Assembly (NCBI GenBank): GCA_029582155.1
Contig: CM055902.1
Span: 20,727,049-20,791,048, forward strand
Source: Panopea generosa
Lineage: Eukaryota; Mollusca; Bivalvia; Adapedonta; Hiatellidae
Length of the DNA: 64,000 bases
Reading direction: 5' to 3'
Shown here: piece after piece, positions 30,214 through 41,290 of the stretch
Position numbering within the stretch: position 1 is the first letter of the stretch
Layout of the letters: every line of letters starts with the position of its first letter
Position numbers and translations under genes: made by a program
Notes under the pieces: generated by a model
Seen by the model: the letters and a program-made list of their open reading frames with translations, nothing else
What the model was told of the DNA's origin: nothing
Databases searched by the model: none

Positions 30214-33200
30214 GACCTAATAATTTGCTCTAAGGTTTGTTCAAGCCATGGCATTATGGTTAAAATTGGCCCCACTCCGGAGACGTGTCAGTTTAACAAG
30301 GCAATTTTATTTAATTACCTCCCTTTATGAAATTAAATATATATGAATTCACTGTATCTAAATGATCCAATGGGTTTATAAATCTGTACTTTCTATAGCA
30401 TGTGAATAGTCATGAATCCTTAACTTGATCCTACTCATATAAAGCTATCAGTTCATGTATGTAAATTTGTCCATCCTGTCCAGATGTGTTGCATTCCATA
30501 GTATATAAGTCATGGTCGACACCAAATTTATTGGTTTGGCAGAGGCATTAATTTTGTATCTATGATTTGCATTGTAGTTAGGCGTACTCGCCGTAGTCTG
30601 GTCTGTACATTTTTGTCTTGGTTATTCACAAATAATTATCTCCATATATATATATATCTTTATTTCGCCTCAAACAAGAGTGCAGTGGTCAATACTATGT
30701 CACTGACTTTGCTTTTATTAGAAGAGGTGTGGAACAGTAACTTCTCATGTGGGAGACAGTAACTCCTTATGCGTGTGGGGGATAATTACTTCTCATGTCG
30801 TGGGGTGTAGTAACTTCTCGTGTGTGTGTGTGTGTGGGGGGGGGGGGGGGCAGTAACTTCTCATGTGGGAGGTGACAGTAACTTCTTAATTAAAGACTGT
30901 AACTTCTCATGTTGAGGGGGATATTAACTCATCATGTTGAGGGGGACAGTAACTGCTCATGTGGGGTACAATAACTTCACATGTGGGTGACAGTAACTTC
31001 TCATCGTCATCATTATTACTTAATATCTTATTGTAAACATCCGAGTGTTTCTGTTCGTACTTTTCAACATAAGTCTATACCCTTTTTCAACTTAAAACAG
31101 GAAGAAAGATATGTTGTACTAATGTGCACCGACACTACATAGTCACATGTAAGAACAACATGCACAATGATTTCTAGAAAGAAAAAAAAATGGAAATGCC
31201 ATTTAAGGTACAATGACATGTCCATACACAGGCTCGCATGGGCTCATTAATTCTTATGTTTCGAAAACCTGGCTGTTCTTTGAGAGTTGCACATAGTTAG
31301 AAAGTTCTGTTCTATTTTCAGTTTTACCAATGTTCAATTAAGCTCTTCCCCGTTTAAACAGTCTTAAAATGACTAAATGTGATAGTGTAATTTTACTGTT
31401 TTTAAATATTTTAACGTACTAACACATAAGCATGTTTCCAATATTAACATACACAGAATTATTAGCTTTAAAGTTATACTGGTCAAGGCTGAGTAGCTTT
31501 TGGTGGGAAAATATTGTCACCTGACAGTCTTATGCATCCCCATTGGCCAACATCTATTCTAAGTCACTCTTGGAAAGAAATTTAGTGTGTAAAGTTGTGT
31601 TATAAACTGTCTGTTTATATCTTTCATTCAATAATTTATTTAATTTGCAAGCTGCAAGTTTCACAGTAGTTATAAATTAACTGCCTTGTATGTAGTTATA
31701 AGATATTTGGACAATGTATAGTCTATTGTGCCATTTGTGAGTTATTATTTTACCGCTTGGAGGTAGTGGTCCTTGATATTTGGAATCTGGAGGATTGAAG
31801 GAAATATGTAGTGCTAGAGAGATAGAGATGAGATGATGGTGGAGTTACGATTGTGGAAGAAATTAGAATCTTTGTACCATATACATAGATGTTTGTTTCT
31901 GATATTGACCATCTAGTCAGTGGAATAAACAGTTACATAGAGAGCAGTGTTTTTATTTTACTGACAACCCTTGTTACGGGGTATGGGTAACAGCTAGCCG
32001 GGATCACCCTACAACAAATCCCCTCTCAATTTCTTTTTACTGGCAACATTCTGAAATCTTAACTTTAAACTTTGAATTGTACTTTACATTGTTAGTCATT
32101 GAAACCATGATGTTAATTACTTGGAAAAAAAATCATACAATACGTTGCTTATAATCTCTACAGTATAATATGACTTTTTCTCCTGTACGCCTTTGTAACC
32201 GACAAAGTCATGCTAGAATGGTAATAAGTGTTCGAATACAACATTACTTATTGATTTGTTCTCATATTATAATAGTGGTTTCACTTCATTAAAATGAAAC
32301 TTTTTTTCTTTTCAGTTTGTGCAATTCTTTATTACAATACTTAGTCTAGTCTTCACGTCGTTTATGCTCGCATTCTTGGTGATAAAACCCGAGAACTATA
32401 TACTCCTGCCAGTAGAACCAGCACAGATGACCAATTCTCGAGTTCTGGTAACCAACACGACTACCACTTTAACAAAGGTTCAATATTCTGAAACCTCAAG
32501 TCAGAAAGTTGAGCATCTATTCAGTTCAAATTTGATGAAGCAGATTCCTCCTGCCGACTGTATTAATAAAAACTTTCTTGTGTACAAGTGTGATTCCATG
32601 TGTGGTGGATTGGGGGACCGACAAAAGGGAATTATTACAAGTTTTTTGCTTGCAATATTAACAAACAGAACATTTATATTGGATATGAAGTACCCGTGTA
32701 ATATTGAAACTTTTCTCAAACCAAACATTTATGACTGGATCAAATGCAAAGCTCACATTACAAACTCAATAAGCAGTGAAACTATTAGAGCTATAGATAG
32801 TGGAAACAATTTACAGAAACTAGCAACTGCTACTTTTAACTCGACAAAACGGGTCCTGTATATCCGTACCAATATGCTAATGATCGACACTATCCGGAAG
32901 AATCCAAATGTGCCAAAACTTACCACGTGGTTAATGGACATGCCGAGCGAACTGGTTGTACGATTTGTACAGTATTTATTGTTCCAGCCGAAGGATCGAC
33001 TTTTATCTGACTTAGCACTACAGTTGTCACATGTAGGAGACAAGAAACTCGCATGTACTCATATACGATACGGCAAAAATCCGTCTGTTCCCCGAGACAG
33101 TGAGCTTGGAATGAACAAATCTAAGGTCAACACAATTTTTGATTTCCTTCAACAGTTCAACGATGTTCATAAATATGTTCTGTACGTTGCAACCGACAAT

Positions 33201-33494
33201 TTAGAAGTCCGCCAACAAGCAAAGAAGACATTTGTTAACCTATTGTCTACAGACGGCGTTATCCTACACATTGACAGACCACAATTGACTGGTAATCAAC
33301 TTTGTGAAGGGTTTTATTCAGCATTATTTGAACAATATCTCCTTTCTAAATGCGACATCATTGTATTAACTCCGAGCGGGTTTGGGGCAATGGCGGCTTA
33401 CTCAAGGGGACATTCGGACAACCTCTATTATTACAACAAGAATAATGACAAAGTGCATAATGCTTCATTAGCTGGTATAAAACCATCCATTTGA
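29509..33494 (+). CDS. Golgi-type fucosyltransferase-like glycosyltransferase (2 exons)
   Basis: Coding exons are 29509-29535 (MSMDNLKRK, donor GTACGT) and 32316-33494 (acceptor tttttcttttcag); both boundaries are phase 0 and the product has about 401 residues. Architecture is type II: a nine-residue basic cytosolic tail, one membrane helix (VQFFITILSLVF onward, residues about 11-34), a Thr-rich stem, then a lumenal catalytic region. The region has CGGLGDRQKGI (residue ~105), HIRYG (~255), VATDN (~292) and CEGF...SKCDIIVLTPSGFG (~345-365). The GDR-x2-GI, H-x-R-x-G and SGFG blocks match the general pattern of GT-B fucosyltransferases that use GDP-fucose; acceptor and linkage are unknown. Sequons NRT, NST, NKS and NAS fit lumenal glycosylation. 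A second first exon lies at 27388-27414. The start is chosen by splicing; the main exon has no ATG near its 5' end. Confidence 0.72.
30214..32315. other. intron between first and main glycosyltransferase exons
   Basis: Contains the 30735-31005 minisatellite. 31480-32015 looks promoter-like and poly(A)-like ('ccccattggccaac', 'ttataaac', 'ggaataaacag'), so an old solo LTR is conceivable but unproven. The intron ends in a strong pyrimidine tract. Confidence 0.5.
30735..31005 (+). repeat. degenerate ~25-35 bp minisatellite with poly-G
   Basis: 'cagtaacttctcatgtggg' recurs about ten times with variable spacing; (GT)n followed by about 17 G lies at 30818-30850. Confidence 0.8.
32316..33494 (+). 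CDS. main exon of the glycosyltransferase
   Basis: Single 1,179-nt exon carrying the membrane helix, stem and entire catalytic region, stop TGA at 33492-33494. The intron-poor layout is common for animal glycosyltransferase families that spread by retroposition or tandem duplication. The open frame begins FVQFFITIL directly at the acceptor. Confidence 0.8.
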   Translation, partial: FVQFFITILSLVFTSFMLAFLVIKPENYILLPVEPAQMTNSRVLVTNTTTTLTKVQYSETSSQKVEHLFSSNLMKQIPPADCINKNFLVYKCDSMCGGLGDRQKGIITSFLLAILTNRTFILDMKYPCNIETFLKPNIYDWIKCKAHITNSISSETIRAIDSGNNLQKLATATFNSTKRVLYIRTNMLMIDTIRKNPNVPKLTTWLMDMPSELVVRFVQYLLFQPKDRLLSDLALQLSHVGDKKLACTHIRYGKNPSVPRDSELGMNKSKVNTIFDFLQQFNDVHKYVLYVATDNLEVRQQAKKTFVNLLSTDGVILHIDRPQLTGNQLCEGFYSALFEQYLLSKCDIIVLTPSGFGAMAAYSRGHSDNLYYYNKNNDKVHNASLAGIKPSI

Positions 33495-33699: not shown

Positions 33700-34160
33700 A
33701 TTTCATATAATTGAATGCATAAAATAATAACCTCTGGGGGTAACACGTTTGGTTAAATCGGCACAAAAGGCTCAGTGTGTAGCATGTCGAACGGTGAATC
33801 AACTTTCTAAGTCACTAATCCATAATCGGCTGCACAAGAAAATTACAAAATAACACGAAAAATGATGTTTTTTCAATTGATCCTGCGAACCCTGGGTACT
33901 GATGTTCACAAAGATTTAAATAACTTTCCTTCGAAATGTCCACAAACAATGATCATTAAATGGTGCTGTGACCACAAAATACTGCCAGTACTCTTTATTA
34001 ACTACGTCCTCAGCTGAAGCCATGACAAGTGGAACAAGCCAGTCTTGGATATTAGAAACCGACTTCCAGATGAGATACTGAAAAATATATAAAGAACAAC
34101 CGAAAACTTTGTTTTAAAGATACATACATATAGCAATTAAATGTTTTTATCCAAGCTAAT
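33700..34160. other. intergenic, nothing recognised
   Basis: No exon or repeat unit seen. Confidence 0.4.
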
Positions 34161-35035
34161 ATAACAGACCTCAAATGGAGGATTGGCCAACGCACTTCAA
34201 ATGGAAGCGATATGTCGCGCCAACATACAACAAGCACATTATGCACACAATATTTATCTTATCTCAATTATACCAGTATTTTTGCATCGGACATTTTTGC
34301 ATCATAAAACCTCAAATTGAGGATTGGCCAACGCACTTCAAATGGAAGCGTTATGTCGCGCCAACATACAACAAGCACATTATGCACACAATATTTATAT
34401 AGTCTAAAATATACCAGTATTTTTGCATCGGACATTTTTGCATTATAAAACCTCAAATGGAGGATTGGCCAACACACTGCAAATGGAAGCGATATGTCGC
34501 ACCAACATGCAACAAGCTCATTATGCACACAATATTTATCTTATCTCAAATATACAAGTATTTTTGCATCGGACATTTTTGCATTATAAAACCTCAAATG
34601 GAGGATTGGCCAACGCACTTCAAATGGAAGCGATATGTCGCGCCAACATACTACAAGATCATTATGCACGCAATATTTATCTTATCTCAATTATACCAAT
34701 ATTTTTGCATCCGACATTTTTTGCATTATAAAACCTCAAATGGAGGATTGGCCAACGCACTTCAAATGGAAGCGATATGTCGCGCCAACATACTACAAGC
34801 TCATTATGCACACAATATTTATCTTATCTTAATTATACCAATATTTTTGCATCGGACATTTTTGCATTATAAAACCTCAAATGGAGGATTGGGCAACGCA
34901 CTTCAAATGGAAGTGATATGTCGCGCCAACATACATCAAGCACATTATGCCTACAACATTTATCTCAAATGTACTAGTTGTTTTTTTTGTATCAGACATT
35001 TTGCATTATAAAAACTCAAATGGAGGATTGGAAAT
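34160..35035 (+). repeat. ~142-bp tandem array, about 7 units
   Basis: Unit: 'cctcaaatggaggattggcc', 'aacgcacttcaaatggaagc', 'gatatgtcgcgccaacat', 'ttttgcatcggacat'. The key phrase recurs near 34177, 34319, 34457, 34601, 34741, 34881 and 35022. Unit length is not a multiple of three; the overlapping open frames on both strands (up to 184 codons) repeat the same peptide and are artefacts. Confidence 0.9.
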
Positions 35036-35039
35036 CATG

Positions 35040-36590
35040 ACTGCACTTTATCGCCATGACCATTCTGCAGAGGCCAAGGGGGGATTCTTTTATTAGAAGT
35101 TATAAAAACTTGAAGCCCCTGTGTGATTCCATTTAAGAATAGCTTATTACCGCTGTCGGACTAGTGAACACCGTCACTGAAAAGACTCGTATCCGCTTCC
35201 GCAATATCTGGATATCTTATGCATGACCCATTCAATTTAAGGACTTCAGTGGCCACCTTACTATTAACCCTTACCCGTACTTTGTCTAAAGCTTTATGGT
35301 TACTTTCACCCCTCCAGGAAAGGCGAAGTAAAATCTGAGACCAAACTTTTAACACCCCTGGAATTAATTATTTTATAAATTGTAACAACTTTACAATGCT
35401 GTTTCTCAAGTCGGCAGCTGGTATTCGTCCAATATCGTTGCCTCTGACGTGCAATACCAGTATATGTGGAGGGTCCTCCAACGACAACAACAATCTCAGC
35501 GTCCTTCGTAACTGGTAGCAACGCATTTCAACCCTCCCTTGCCACCATAGGCTGGCACCATACCGTCTTAATCCCAAGCTGACGCCAGCTGCTGTGGACT
35601 GCCTCGCAAAAGTAAATGCCCTTTTGATGATAGACGATCCAACAATCCATACTCTAGTACTGACATCTGCAATACTTAACTTGCAGTCAGTAATAAGCCC
35701 ATTAAAACCCTAGCTTTTCGGTAGGTACTCTTATGTATCTTTTAAATGATCTCGACCCTCATCTACCTAGTTCTTTTATGCCACTGTCAGACATACCTTT
35801 ACACATTAACGTACTGCATTCATTGGATTCTTTCCTGCAACCAAACAAAAAATCATCCAAATAATGAAGAACACAACCATGCTCTTCCCTTTGTTTTATT
35901 GCCCACTCCAAAAAGGTTGAAAATGTTTCAAAAAGAGAGCAGGAAATGGAACATCCCATAGAAAGACACATGTCATAAAAGCACTTTCCTCCTAAACTAA
36001 AACCCAGTAGCTCATAGTCTGATGGACTGACTGGCAATAACCTAAATGCCTTAATATCCATTTTTCCTAATAAGGCCCTCCTGTCCAAGGGTACTGACCA
36101 TAGCCACTGCTTCGTCAAATGAGGCGTAATGAACTTTACACAACTCTTCACTAATAAAGTCATTTACGCTTGAACCAAGAGGATGTGACATGTTGTATGA
36201 GTCGAAAAGTTTTATCCTTTTTAGGCACAATACCAATGGGGGATAATCTAATATTGGGAAATGGTTTCTCCCCAAAAGGGCCTGCCATTCTACCTAAAGC
36301 TACTTCTTTATTCACTAAATCAAAGGCAGCTTTTTCGTTACTTTTAACAGAAACTAGGTTTTTACAGTATGTTGGAACCCTTCGACCACTGTAGTACAGA
36401 GGGAAGCCAAATTGTAACCCATCTATTAATTCCTTTTTGACTGCATTCTCTGGATAAAATTCCATAGCTCGACTCAATGACTCAATTCGAATTGGGGTAT
36501 TGCCGAGGGGCGCTATATCTGGGGAAACCACGTGGTAAACGTAGCTTAATATACTATTAGTATTACCCTGTACATCCTCAGTGGTTCCGG
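35040..36590 (-). pseudogene. DIRS-like retroelement: RT and SGNH-hydrolase part, decayed
   Basis: Minus strand, reading from 36590 down. A leader segment is followed by reverse transcriptase blocks: FGFPLYYSGRR, SPIGIVPKKDKTFRLIQHV, then after a frameshift (about 36170) LGSSVNDFI, then after another (about 36085) ALLGKMDIKAFRLLPV, MGCSISCSLFE and the catalytic YLDDFLF (35840-35866). The motif set is that of DIRS/tyrosine-recombinase retroelements. After a deletion the frame resumes as an SGNH-hydrolase-like domain: VWIVGSSI (block I, 35632-35640) to SDGVH (35164-35175), with a stop right after the His. RNase H and tyrosine recombinase were not found. Confidence 0.7.
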
Positions 36591-36623
36591 TGTAACGTTG
36601 TAAACTGACCCCCATCGAATAAT

Positions 36624-36668
36624 GACCGGGGGGGTTCATTATTTTATATAAAATAATGAACCCCCGGT
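36624..36668. repeat. perfect-looking palindrome
   Basis: 'gaccgggggggttcattatt' then 'ttatataaaataatgaaccc' then 'ccggtc': a hairpin around TTTATATAAA, subterminal in the insertion. Related units are at 39230-39365. Confidence 0.8.
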
Positions 36669-36680
36669 CATAATATTATT

Positions 36681-36709
36681 AACCTAACCCAAACCCTAAC
36701 CCTAACCCA
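36681..36709 (+). repeat. short (CCCTAA)n-like tract
   Basis: aacctaacccaaaccctaac followed by cctaaccc: four to five telomere-like units, probably incidental and internal to the insertion. Confidence 0.6.
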
Positions 36710-36719
36710 TCTAAGGTAC

Positions 36720-37010
36720 ACTTACAACATAATTATCCCCTGCCGATAGACATCGGAGGATAATATGGTAATGGCACCCGTCCGTGCGTGCGTCCGTGCG
36801 TGCGTCCGTGCAACATTTTTGTGACCGCAACTCCTCATTCATTATAGGATGGAATCGATTCAAACTTTCAGGGATTACTACTACTAATGCTTAGTTGTGG
36901 AGGAAGAAACAAATCTTGGAATTGCTCAACCCGTTCTGGAGTTATGGCCCTTTTTTCAAATGGCATCGGCGGGAGATATGGCTGTCATTCGACTGCAGCC
37001 CTTGTTTTTT
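36720..37010 (+). repeat. dispersed repeat with 'gccgatagacatcggagg' head
   Basis: Contains (GTGCGTCC)n (36782-36812), 'gtgaccgcaactcctcattc' and 'ctggagttatggcccttttt', ending 'gcagcccttgttttt'. This style of repeat is widespread in bivalves. The 61-codon frame at 36887 is not coding. Confidence 0.55.
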
Positions 37011-37129
37011 TTCTAAGAAGTGTTCCTAGCTTCCCTGGTTTCTTTAAAAACACATTACAACTTTATATATAAGTCGTGACGGGTATCGTAACAGAAACTT
37101 AGTTAACATATTGTGCAATGGCTTTGACT

Positions 37130-37500
37130 GTTATAAAGGGGTATAATTATTGCTCAAGACGTGTTACTTAAAAGCTCTTGAAAAGTGACAAAAATCACCC
37201 AAACCTCCAGGGGAATGCCTATATTTCAATATTATACTGAAATTCGAACAACATCTTATTGTCATGGGCGTCACAGGTCATAAAACATGGGACGTCCCCA
37301 CAACCGATTTGCATATTTTATGCCTTATATTGATATAATTGTTTTTTCTACTTAAAAACGCCTGAAAAGTGACAAAAATACCCAAAATCCAAAGAAGGAT
37401 GTCTCTTCAACAATATACTGACATTTGAATAATTTCTAACGACGAGGAGCGTCACAGGTTATTAAACCACTGGGCTACCCCACACCCGTTTCGACTATTT
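37130..37500 (+). repeat. two tandem ~185-bp units
   Basis: Both copies carry 'ctgaaaagtgacaaaaat(c)accca', 'gcgtcacaggt' and 'cccacacccg'-like ends. Confidence 0.65.
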
Positions 37501-38059
37501 TTGGAGGTATATATGAGTGACATATAAGTGACATAATGAAGGTTAAGGGTATTTGACATCACTTTCAACATTGTGCTTTTCCACGTATAAATTGCCTTTT
37601 TACAATCTTGCACTCCAGAAAATGAACTATTTTACCGTCAATAGCATTTTTTCGTAATAAGCCCGCGAGCCCATGCTACTACGAAATTAGTGCAACATGT
37701 AGGATGCAATAAAAAAATGATGTTTCCTCTAAAATTTCGGACAAAATCACCATAACATAAGTTCCAGAATGCTTACACTACATTGTACAGAGGGTAAATT
37801 AATAAGTATATACATGTATACGTAACATAATTATACGTTATACCTTGCATATAATGCGATGTCACAAAGTTACGAGGCTGTTGAAGGTACTATCTCACCG
37901 AATCTTGGAAAAATCTTGGAAAAATAAAACTTAAGCCTGTTGAAATACTTGAAGCATGAAACTTTTATAGGTAACAAAAAGATTTAGATCTAAAACATGT
38001 TCTAAACAAAAAGTCATGCACCTTTAAAGCAGGAGTTTCGTGATCTATGTTCTAAGTAT

Positions 38060-38205
38060 GTTCTACCGTGTATCTTGAAAGTTGCAGGGGTTCCAAGGTG
38101 CAAAAGGATTCTTTTATGTATCCCTCTTCCATTAGGTCATTTATTTCTATCGGCAAAGGTTTGATACGGCAAAACAATATCCCTTTGGTGAGACCTATCC
38201 ACTTT
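38060..38205 (-). pseudogene. possible LTR-retroelement pol fragment
   Basis: On the minus strand one frame is open for about 45 codons and includes RIKPLPIEINDLMEEGYIKES, shortened here to its core PLPIEINDLMEEG. This resembles the 'I...L...G-x-I-x-x-S' segment before the RT palm in Ty3/BEL-type elements. Too short to assign firmly. Confidence 0.2.
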
Positions 38206-38245
38206 AATAAGCAAGCGCGCTACCATTGCGCCACCGAGGCTCACA
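38205..38245 (-). repeat. tRNA-like 5' half (A box), SINE scrap
   Basis: Minus strand reads GCCTCGGTGGCGCAATGGTAG then CGCGC, an A-box/D-arm-like sequence; no B box follows. Confidence 0.4.
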
Positions 38246-39229
38246 AAAGTGGTAAGTATTTAAAAGAGGATGCGTAGTTCGGCCTCAACCTGGATAGCTG
38301 GTTTTTAAGATGCGTTGTTATGCCACCGCAATTCGAAGAATAGAGTGAATTAAGGTGGCTTGCCAGTCTTCTTTGACGTCGGTCGACGTAATAATGGTCG
38401 AAAAGTAAAGATATCGTATTGCCCTGATATTTGGTATTCATATACAAGGACACCTCCCCTTCATTTTGTACGATTCAGATCTTTTATATTCCTTTTTTGT
38501 TTAGCAAAGGGCTGTTTCGTACAATTAATTAATGAAAAATTGAAGTATCTGGAGTAAAATTGGCTTATTTTTTTCGCTGGATTAATTTCAAAAACAACAT
38601 TCGGATACTCTTGACAAGGGAAACAGAATGATATAAGTCAGTGTTGTCAATCGGAAATTTCATAAAATGTCACTATAAGGGCGTTAAATGTTTTAAAAAA
38701 TGCGCGATTCTTTTGATCTTAGAGTAGCACCATACGAGCTTCGGTGAACGATTTGGTCGGCGGAAAACGATTCAATTTACTAACGACTTACGCAGTCTTT
38801 TTGCTAGGAAAATTCCGAACAAGTTTATGAAATAAAAAAGGGGGTCTTTCCGTGAAATATTTCATGACCAGAATCATTTCAGATGACTAATAAAAGATGA
38901 TAATACACTGTTTGTAAACAAAACCAAATTATCCTCCAGCCTAAATATCGGTTCTCTCTATTTCTATAGTAACCTTAAAACGACTTAGGTATATCTTCTA
39001 TTATTGTAATACTTCTCTTTAAGTACAATAATGATAATTCAAATGAAAACCCTTTTAAATTTCATTTTTCAATAGATGTACGTTTATTTCTTAGCGGGGC
39101 CTCTAAGTTATACTGCTGTTGTGTCAGCTGTAGACGCAGCAGCAGCAGAAACAACAACAACAACAAATAAAAGCAATAGAAACACGACAGTGACTTGAAT
39201 TGATATAGAGTATGTTAGTAATAGGTTAG

Positions 39230-39365
39230 GCGGGGGGTCAATATTTTATAGATAAAATCGGGGGGGGGGGGGGGGGGGGGGGGGCATTATTTTATAAGGG
39301 GTGTCAGTATTTTATAGAAAAGGGGTCATTATTCTATATAAAATAATGACCGGGGTCATTATTCT
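39230..39365 (+). repeat. subterminal repeats and poly-G tract
   Basis: Several copies of 'ggggtcattattttata' plus a run of about 25 G (39259-39284) near the right end of the insertion. Confidence 0.8.
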
Positions 39366-39390
39366 ATGGGGGTCAGTTTACAACGTTACA

Positions 39391-39625
39391 CCGGCAGCTG
39401 TTACATCCGCTGGCACGTCGGTTGCCATTTGAGTACCAAGCGATTGAATTATTTGTGGCGTCACTTGCCGCACGACCTCCCTGACGACCTCTGGCAACAC
39501 TTACTGCTGCTCAACTGTCGCAGGTATGGGGCTGGAGGCTCTGGCACATGGTTTGGGATGGGTCTTGAAGGCCTCCCACGGGCGTAAGGACTCCCACGGG
39601 CGTAAGATGGCCTCTAGCATTGTTA
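39391..39625 (-). pseudogene. DIRS-like retroelement: gag-like 5' part
   Basis: Minus strand segment on the far side of the 2,800-bp insertion. One frame reads VLPEVVREVVRQVTPQ and then TQMATDVPADVTAAG up to the CCGG site, where it continues in frame with the ORF at 36590. Slightly upstream, in another frame, is an Arg/Pro-rich stretch (PYARGRPSRPIPNHVPEPP), so a frameshift separates the two. This fits a retroelement gag C-terminus. Confidence 0.5.
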
Positions 39626-39929
39626 CAGGTTTGATTGTATTCACAATGAAATTCATCGTGCCGACCAATACTGCCCCCAAGCAACTACGACAAGCTACAT
39701 GAAATATCTACTTTAAACCATGTATCATTGATATAAATAATAAACTGCTTCGTTATTTCCAACATTGTTTTAAACCAAAACGGTTGGTAAAGTTTTTCTC
39801 GATGACGAAATCCGATTACGCTACGTCGCGTCTTGTCATTGGTTTTCGTACTTGTTAAAAATCCATCAAAATCAAGGAACAACAGTTATGTACGGTGTTC
39901 CGTTTGGACCATCGCGTTTTTTTATTTCA

Positions 39930-40205
39930 GATTGTATGAAACACTGGTATGCTTGTTTCCAGATGAGCAAAATTCAAACAGATAAAAATATAGTGTGAAG
40001 CGGTCGCGAACAGATTATATGGAACACTGGTATGCTTGTTTCCAGCTGAACAAAATTCAAAACAGACAAAAATATAGTGTGAAACGGTCGCGTACAGATT
40101 GTATGGAACACTGGTATGCTTGTTTCCAGCTGAACAAAATTCAAAACAGACAAAAATATAGTGTGAAACGGTCGCGTACAGATTGTATGGAACACTGGTA
40201 TTGCG
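39930..40205 (+). repeat. 84-bp tandem repeat, about 3.3 units
   Basis: Unit: 'acagattgtatggaacactg', 'gtatgcttgtttccagctga', 'acagacaaaaatatagtgtg', 'aaacggtcgcgt'. 84 is a multiple of three, so both strands show repetitive open frames; neither is taken as a gene. Confidence 0.9.
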
Positions 40206-40689
40206 ATTTAAGAACTTATCAACTTAACACTTACACACCGGGATCACTCCGAAATGTACAACATAATAATCACCCATCAGTGTTGAGGTTGGACTATCAA
40301 GAAAACAAATAAAAATTGCATAAACTTAAAAGAATGTGTAGACTTGTAGCCTGTGTTCCACTTTGTGGTATAAACGTCCTTGTTTAACCTTAAAATTCAC
40401 TGTGCAACTTTCAAATTGAAACGCCACGTGAAAAGGCGAAATATTTATAAATATGTCCAGTATAAATTGAATATACAAAATCCTGGAAACCTAATTGCAA
40501 TCATTCTTAGCAATAGTACTTAGTGTACATGCCGGTCACAATGTATATCTTCCAACATATTTAAGTATACCGGGGCGTGTGATCTTTTAGATGTTGAAAT
40601 GCTTTCTCAAGTATACCCCAGTTAGCGTTTATTTTTCTCCATGTTTTGGAATAGTGTATTTCTTAAAAATATCTTTTAATATATCCTGG

Positions 40690-41290
40690 TTACTTTCACC
40701 AGTTCTTTGAGCGTTTTTTATGTGTGGATATAAAATCATGTACAATGTTATCCATACTTTTGCGATCTTGTAATCCAACGTTTTGCTTGCCGTTACCTTA
40801 ATGAATTTCTGGGGCCATGTAAACTGGGAATCCTCTGTATAAATGTGTTGTTTTTGTTTGAATCAAAATTGCTGTTTGTATTCAAGCGGTCCTACTTTCG
40901 CCAAAATCAGCAAGTTTGGCCGGCAAAGGTTTTGTTTGCCACATATTTTCTTAATCTTCCACAACATTGAAATGTTGATTGGAAACAAGGACGTCATCAG
41001 GCTTAAGATCCCTATGGGCAATGTCTCACTCCTTCAAATACACCAATCCTTTGCAAATATCATTCGAACAAATGTGTAGTGTGCAAACAGTCATTAAGAG
41101 GTGATACTTTGCTCTCATGACCAAAATTACTAAAATCAAAGTACAAATATTCAATCAAACATGAAAAACTCTGATTTGTAAAAGCTGTCAAACTTAACGA
41201 TGTTTTCATGATTAATAGAGCGCCTAGAACAAAATCGCATCGCCTTCAAGCATGTCATTCAGTATCACCTCTTTATTGTCATTTGTCCTA
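40690..41290 (-). pseudogene. protein kinase pseudogene
   Basis: In one minus-strand frame: INHENIVKFDSFYKSEF (alpha-C/beta-4 region), ICKGLVYLKE, catalytic loop HRDLKPDDVLVSN (about 41016-40978), ADFGESR (DFG at 40908-40900), a gap, then TTHLYRGFPVYMAPEI (APE about 40815), in N- to C-terminal order. At least four in-frame stops (for example YLKE-stop-DIAHRD and NVVED-stop) and frame shifts in the N-lobe disable it. No introns interrupt the motifs, so it may be a processed copy. The sub-family is uncertain. The 78-codon + frame at 40843 is its shadow. Confidence 0.72.

Follow-up and report, generated by a model that had tools for sequence, protein, structure and literature searches.

A probable non-autonomous Ginger1-like transposon nested in a Ngaro-like retroelement of Panopea generosa

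A 64,000-nucleotide stretch of Panopea generosa contig CM055902.1 (referred to as the window) contains a non-coding insert of 2,800 bp that is very probably a non-autonomous cut-and-paste transposon of Ginger1-like type, lying in the putative gag frame of a deletion-bearing, apparently Ngaro-like retroelement. Overall this is an ordinary nested insertion, and the family to which the insert belongs, a new non-autonomous family within a known transposon group, leaves the view of transposition unchanged. The locus provides a clean worked case, in which boundaries, target duplication and probable superfamily were read from raw sequence and then borne out by empty sites and sister copies. It would also add to Ginger1, a group represented in its 2010 description chiefly by hydra (which accounts for 12 of 16 families in Table 1 of Bao, Kapitonov and Jurka 2010; PMC2836005), a family whose target preference is sharp and has a CpG-containing site at its centre.

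Extent of the insert and its target duplication

The insert and its flanking repeats were delimited as follows (coordinates are those of the window):

36587..36590, no strand, CCGG target duplication, left copy (single 4-mer in all 18 listed uninterrupted relatives)
36591..39390, no strand, probable Ginger1-like DNA transposon, non-coding, 2,800 bp (inverted ends, flanking CCGG, frames of at most 77 aa, sister copies)
36591..36663, plus strand, left terminal inverted repeat, TGTAACGTTG... (gapped alignment of both ends)
36630..36665, no strand, perfect palindrome of 36 nt, just internal to the left end
39322..39390, minus strand, right terminal inverted repeat, ...CAACGTTACA (gapped alignment of both ends)
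39391..39394, no strand, CCGG target duplication, right copy (paired flanks; uninterrupted relatives)

The insert spans 36591-39390, exactly 2,800 bp, and its ends are inverted (TGTAACGTTG...CAACGTTACA), with both reading TGTAA and with CCGG flanking either end. Including CCGG, the arms measure 41 nt and are 98% complementary, which bears out the original prediction of a transposon of this length with inverted ends and CCGG outside both; inside CCGG the inverted repeat covers 37 bp with one mismatch, or about 73 and 69 bp (left and right, respectively) when gaps are allowed. The longest stop-to-stop frame within the insert is 77 aa. A palindrome of the form GGGGTCA...TGACCCC, as found beneath the left end, was present in 20 of 29 sister loci.

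When one CCGG was kept, the minus-strand frame of the host ran on without a shift (...DVTAAGTTEDVQGN...), as had been predicted, and with both copies kept it was broken. Among spacings of 0 to 8 bases, however, the frame survived removal of either 1 or 7 bases following the insert just as it did removal of 4, so that the frame test narrows the choice of boundary and does not fix it. The claim that the frame fixed boundaries and duplication independently of any database was thus too strong, the frame alone allowing 1, 4 or 7 bases.

As CCGG is its own reverse complement, it could in principle belong to the inverted repeat, and since it flanks most copies, the arms might be taken to extend through it with no target duplication at all. 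This reading, which we consider highly improbable, conflicts with the frame, which is broken when both CCGG copies are kept and likewise when all 8 of their bases are removed (the second case by arithmetic), and it is refuted by the uninterrupted relatives, which carry one 4-mer at the site. A search of the genome with the right flank gave 19 matching places, namely the window and 18 others, eleven of them obtained directly from the flank search and seven as 101-bp pieces. All 18 listed relatives cross the site without the insert, have the expected junction sequence, and show a single 4-mer there: CCAG in 15 and CCGG (L101), CAAG and TCAG in one each. The site in L102 and L103, whose right side has diverged, was read directly from their sequences. 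The commonest difference, CCAG against CCGG, is a CpG transition that is silent in the gag frame, and the copy that was hit therefore most likely had CCGG at the target. Together with one sister copy flanked by CCGA as a direct repeat (L031), which is not what an inverted repeat would give, the uninterrupted relatives settle the target duplication.

Sister copies and target preference

A 130-bp query was used to search for sister copies, and from the best 40 of 416 candidates scored, 30 loci were examined, the window's included. Second ends were sought in 23 other copies and found in 20, and none was present in the stretches examined for L027, L030 and L037. Adding the window copy and three short copies that were covered in full (L019, L020 and L036) gave 24 both-ended copies, of which 17 are flanked by CCGG/CCGG and one by CCGA/CCGA, the remaining six being unequal on one side; the equal pairs identify the 4-mer as a target duplication. 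At a further locus (L021/L063, C15:31088800-31097900), one end with CCGG adjoins an unrelated body and no second end lies within 9.1 kb; it was rejected as a carrier with a different body, the surrounding 9.1 kb having neither a second end nor a frame longer than 138 aa.

Three of the copies (L019, L020 and L036) have common flanks and all lie in one duplicated region. The other flanks share just 106-292 bp at 69-86% identity, lying at differing distances from the end, a pattern that dispersed repeats would produce. Copy lengths range from 1,195 to 3,238 bp, with 18 of 24 within 2,571-3,078 bp. The median K2P distance was 3.6% and the maximum 17%, as measured over 1.5 kb in 24 of the 30 copies (L017, L019, L020, L021, L029 and L036 being omitted). 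In a tree of 22 of these (excluding L022 and L037, which differ most from the window copy) there was no well-supported inner branch and the median end branch was 1.6%. Such similar terminal divergence among dispersed copies is as expected from a single burst. The exact 20-bp end occurred 134 + 148 = 282 times genome-wide, against 0 + 0 for the reversed control, and the family is for this reason probably a hundred or more copies strong. Two further elements with paired ends (L104 of 3.6 kb and L105 of 2.2 kb) belong to this non-coding family as variants.

A solo remnant, left by an LTR or some other retroelement, is an extremely unlikely alternative to a cut-and-paste element: TGTNR ends occur in Gypsy LTR elements as well (PMC2836005), but the ends observed here are inverted and not direct repeats, and sister copies of 1.2-3.2 kb retain both of them.

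Other copies had been expected to show the same ends next to different 4-bp flanks. The ends were indeed the same, whereas the flanks were nearly always CCGG rather than different 4-mers, because the element is target-specific. Out of 33 ends found, 30 were distinct by the last 12 flanking bases, and their flanking 4-mers were CCGG (25), CCGA (3), CTGG (1) and CCTG (1). The 4-mer was preceded by G at 27 of the 30 distinct ends; in the both-ended copies G stood before it in 21 of 24 and C after it in 19 of 24, and at the site in the window itself CCGG is preceded by T and followed by C. The flanking bases point to GCCGGC as the preferred target, and the background figure for G before CCGG (33 of 164) includes CCGG inside elements and is no clean control. 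A literature search found no paper combining Ginger1 with GCCGGC.

The interrupted retroelement

The following parts of the host element were recognised on either side of the insert:

33875..39884, minus strand, retroelement-like sequence, outer extent, insert included (comparison with one relative)
34168..35031, no strand, tandem array, 141 bp, 6.1 copies
35368..35709, minus strand, remnant of GDSL/SGNH hydrolase region (reads like L076:1836-2510)
35759..36540, minus strand, pol part, reverse transcriptase region in two frames (RVT_1 below the curated cut-off)
36541..36586, minus strand, gag part downstream of the insert (comparison with relatives)
39395..39592, minus strand, gag part upstream of the insert, with in-frame stop codon (identity to relatives)

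The upstream gag part (39395..39592) shares 88-94% identity with 16 relatives and 81% with another two. At the position of its stop codon, 10 of 11 relatives encode L (the sequence of L069, the last of them, was read less far), and the stop-to-stop gag frame amounts to 347 aa in L070, L071 and L075. At 36540/36541, 46 bp from CCGG, the window copy is without 681-691 bp that are present in 9 of 11 relatives; of the remaining two, L065 is arranged differently and L074 gave one of two pieces. A further 1,688 bp are missing near 35801 relative to L076. The host copy in the window is thus, judging by its sequence, a dead fragment.

The order of the coding regions was taken from relatives L075 and L076, and comprises a 347-aa first frame followed by reverse transcriptase, RNase H, tyrosine recombinase and GDSL/SGNH hydrolase. 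Matches above cut-off were obtained there for RVT_1, RT_RNaseH, Phage_integrase and Lipase_GDSL_2, the last at 5e-10 in L076:1836-2510; the corresponding hydrolase piece of the window (35368..35709) gave no Pfam match. The first frame, in which the insert lies, had no Pfam match either and is gag in our reading. No methyltransferase match was found in L075/L076 when six frames were scanned at E 0.01.

In amphibians, Ngaro-like elements with a hydrolase after the recombinase have been described (PMC9210276), and a relative of the host likewise has gag, reverse transcriptase, RNase H and tyrosine recombinase followed by an SGNH-type hydrolase ORF. The domain set of a Ngaro-like element, with methyltransferase absent, is found in L075/L076, and the window copy lacks much of it. 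Split direct repeats are a further character of Ngaro-like elements. DIRS1-like elements, which are marked by inverted terminal repeats, internal complementary regions and a methyltransferase, as described (PMC3266345) share reverse transcriptase, RNase H and tyrosine recombinase with the host, but differ in that the host relative has the hydrolase in place of any methyltransferase match. Because of the hydrolase downstream in a relative, the host is best read as a deletion-bearing, Ngaro-like tyrosine-recombinase retroelement hit in gag, rather than as DIRS1-like. The original prediction of a split DIRS-like ORF therefore holds in the wide sense of DIRS-like; the element appears Ngaro-like, the hit is in gag, and with its deletions and the gag stop codon the ORF is not otherwise intact.

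A difference from Ngaro-like elements as described is the tandem array of 141-bp units at the host's far end, which lies outside the interval of the original prediction. The same array also flanks L076 on the same side (L076:2513-3571), so that it probably belongs to the host element, one relative having been compared. No long inverted pair brackets the host in 34500-40200, where the copy is broken and extends past that stretch. A PDB search with two host pieces gave nothing useful, and no Rfam match was found in 34000-41000. Elsewhere in the window, a 398-aa open frame (32298-33494) weakly resembled fucosyltransferase families, with no match reaching the curated cut-offs.

Relation to Ginger1 and candidate sources of transposase

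According to the 2010 description (PMC2836005), Ginger1 elements are 2.6-7 kb long, have TGTNR ends and terminal inverted repeats of 40-270 bp, and are flanked by duplications of CCGG (75%) or CCGT/ACGG (24%). Their integrase-like transposases carry H2C2, a DDE core and GPY/F, mostly together with OTU or Ulp1, and non-autonomous copies are known in lancelet (PMC2836005). The insert agrees with this in its TGTAA ends, in its length, in its inverted repeat (37 bp ungapped inside CCGG, 69-73 bp gapped, against about 40-270 bp) and in its 4-bp duplications (CCGG/CCGG in 17 of 24 copies, CCGA/CCGA in one, unequal in six). It differs in the possible added preference for a leading G and a trailing C around CCGG, a feature absent from the text of that description, and in having no transposase, none being present in the insert, L104 or L105; nor was an autonomous element with the same ends found. 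Absence of a transposase is expected of a non-autonomous member.

The lack of any transposase tied to the insert ends would also suit another, or an undescribed, TG...CA superfamily with 4-bp duplications that prefers CCGG by chance. TGT...ACA ends occur in some families of IS481EU, as do 4-bp duplications in some, but IS481EU has been reported in parabasalids, where other duplications measure about 15 and 25 bp (PMC10045372), and the literature on CCGG-duplicating transposons with terminal inverted repeats led by title, besides Ginger, to piggyBac, another transpososome, rice elements and carrot Stowaway. Membership in such a superfamily is accordingly judged improbable, and a Ginger1-like origin is preferred.

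Ends, 4-bp duplication, empty site, target preference, dispersed copies and the lack of coding capacity were all observed directly, and that the insert works like Ginger1 is well supported; its candidate descent from a known autonomous Ginger1 is unproven. DDE transposases act through cutting and gap-repair steps. An enzyme encoded elsewhere in the genome, presumably an integrase-like DDE transposase, would bind the TGTAACGTTG... ends, excise the element and join it to the target at positions staggered by 4 bp around CCGG, preferably within GCCGGC, and gap repair after joining would leave CCGG on either side. A more speculative possibility, which we regard as doubtful, is that integrase-OTU elements resident in the genome, whose outer ends differ, mobilise the GCCGGC-targeting family in trans and would recognise it via shared GGGGTCA...TGACCCC palindromes beneath the ends and not via the terminal repeat.

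No transposase was found between TGTAACGTTG ends; among 100 of the 282 end matches, the longest pair by eye was L104, which spans 3.6 kb and has no frame longer than 111 aa. In a search for the OTU family, the best 150 of 365 candidates were scored and 18 of the 150 examined (L077-L090 and L093-L096). The insert end with CCGG was found at none of these 18 loci, and L093, L094 and L096 showed loose resemblances to it with three mismatches. L088, in the same genome, has one 545-aa frame with an integrase core (2.1e-13) and OTU (7.9e-12), which indicates by its domains that a Ginger1-type gene exists there. Together with L094 and L095, whose frames are near-identical by eye, it looks like one Ginger1-type group. 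The TGTAACGTTG end was not seen across the 14 kb made up of L088, L091 and L092. To the left of L088, CCGT is followed by TGTGA, with no matching right end seen, and this could represent a distinct type of end. The DNA of L088 matches the insert over 42 bp (86%, E 2e-7), which is taken as a hint because the stretch is rich in G runs. L090 encodes a different OTU protein.

Several further observations were made around the integrase-OTU genes. Across L091, L088 and L092 (C11:34198500-34212500), a long array of 169-bp units lies beside the integrase-OTU gene, with 21 copies in L092 alone, and many of the units carry a palindrome (GGGGGTCAT...ATGACCCCC) resembling the subterminal palindrome of the insert's sisters. 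By eye, L087, L089 and L096 form a second integrase-OTU group distinct from L088, perhaps with L093 likewise; the integrase match of L087 is weak (rve_3 below cut-off). On the minus strand of L095, from 7001, two open frames adjoin an integrase-OTU remnant, and one of them contains a GQSNAGKT motif, which we take to be nucleotide-binding-like.
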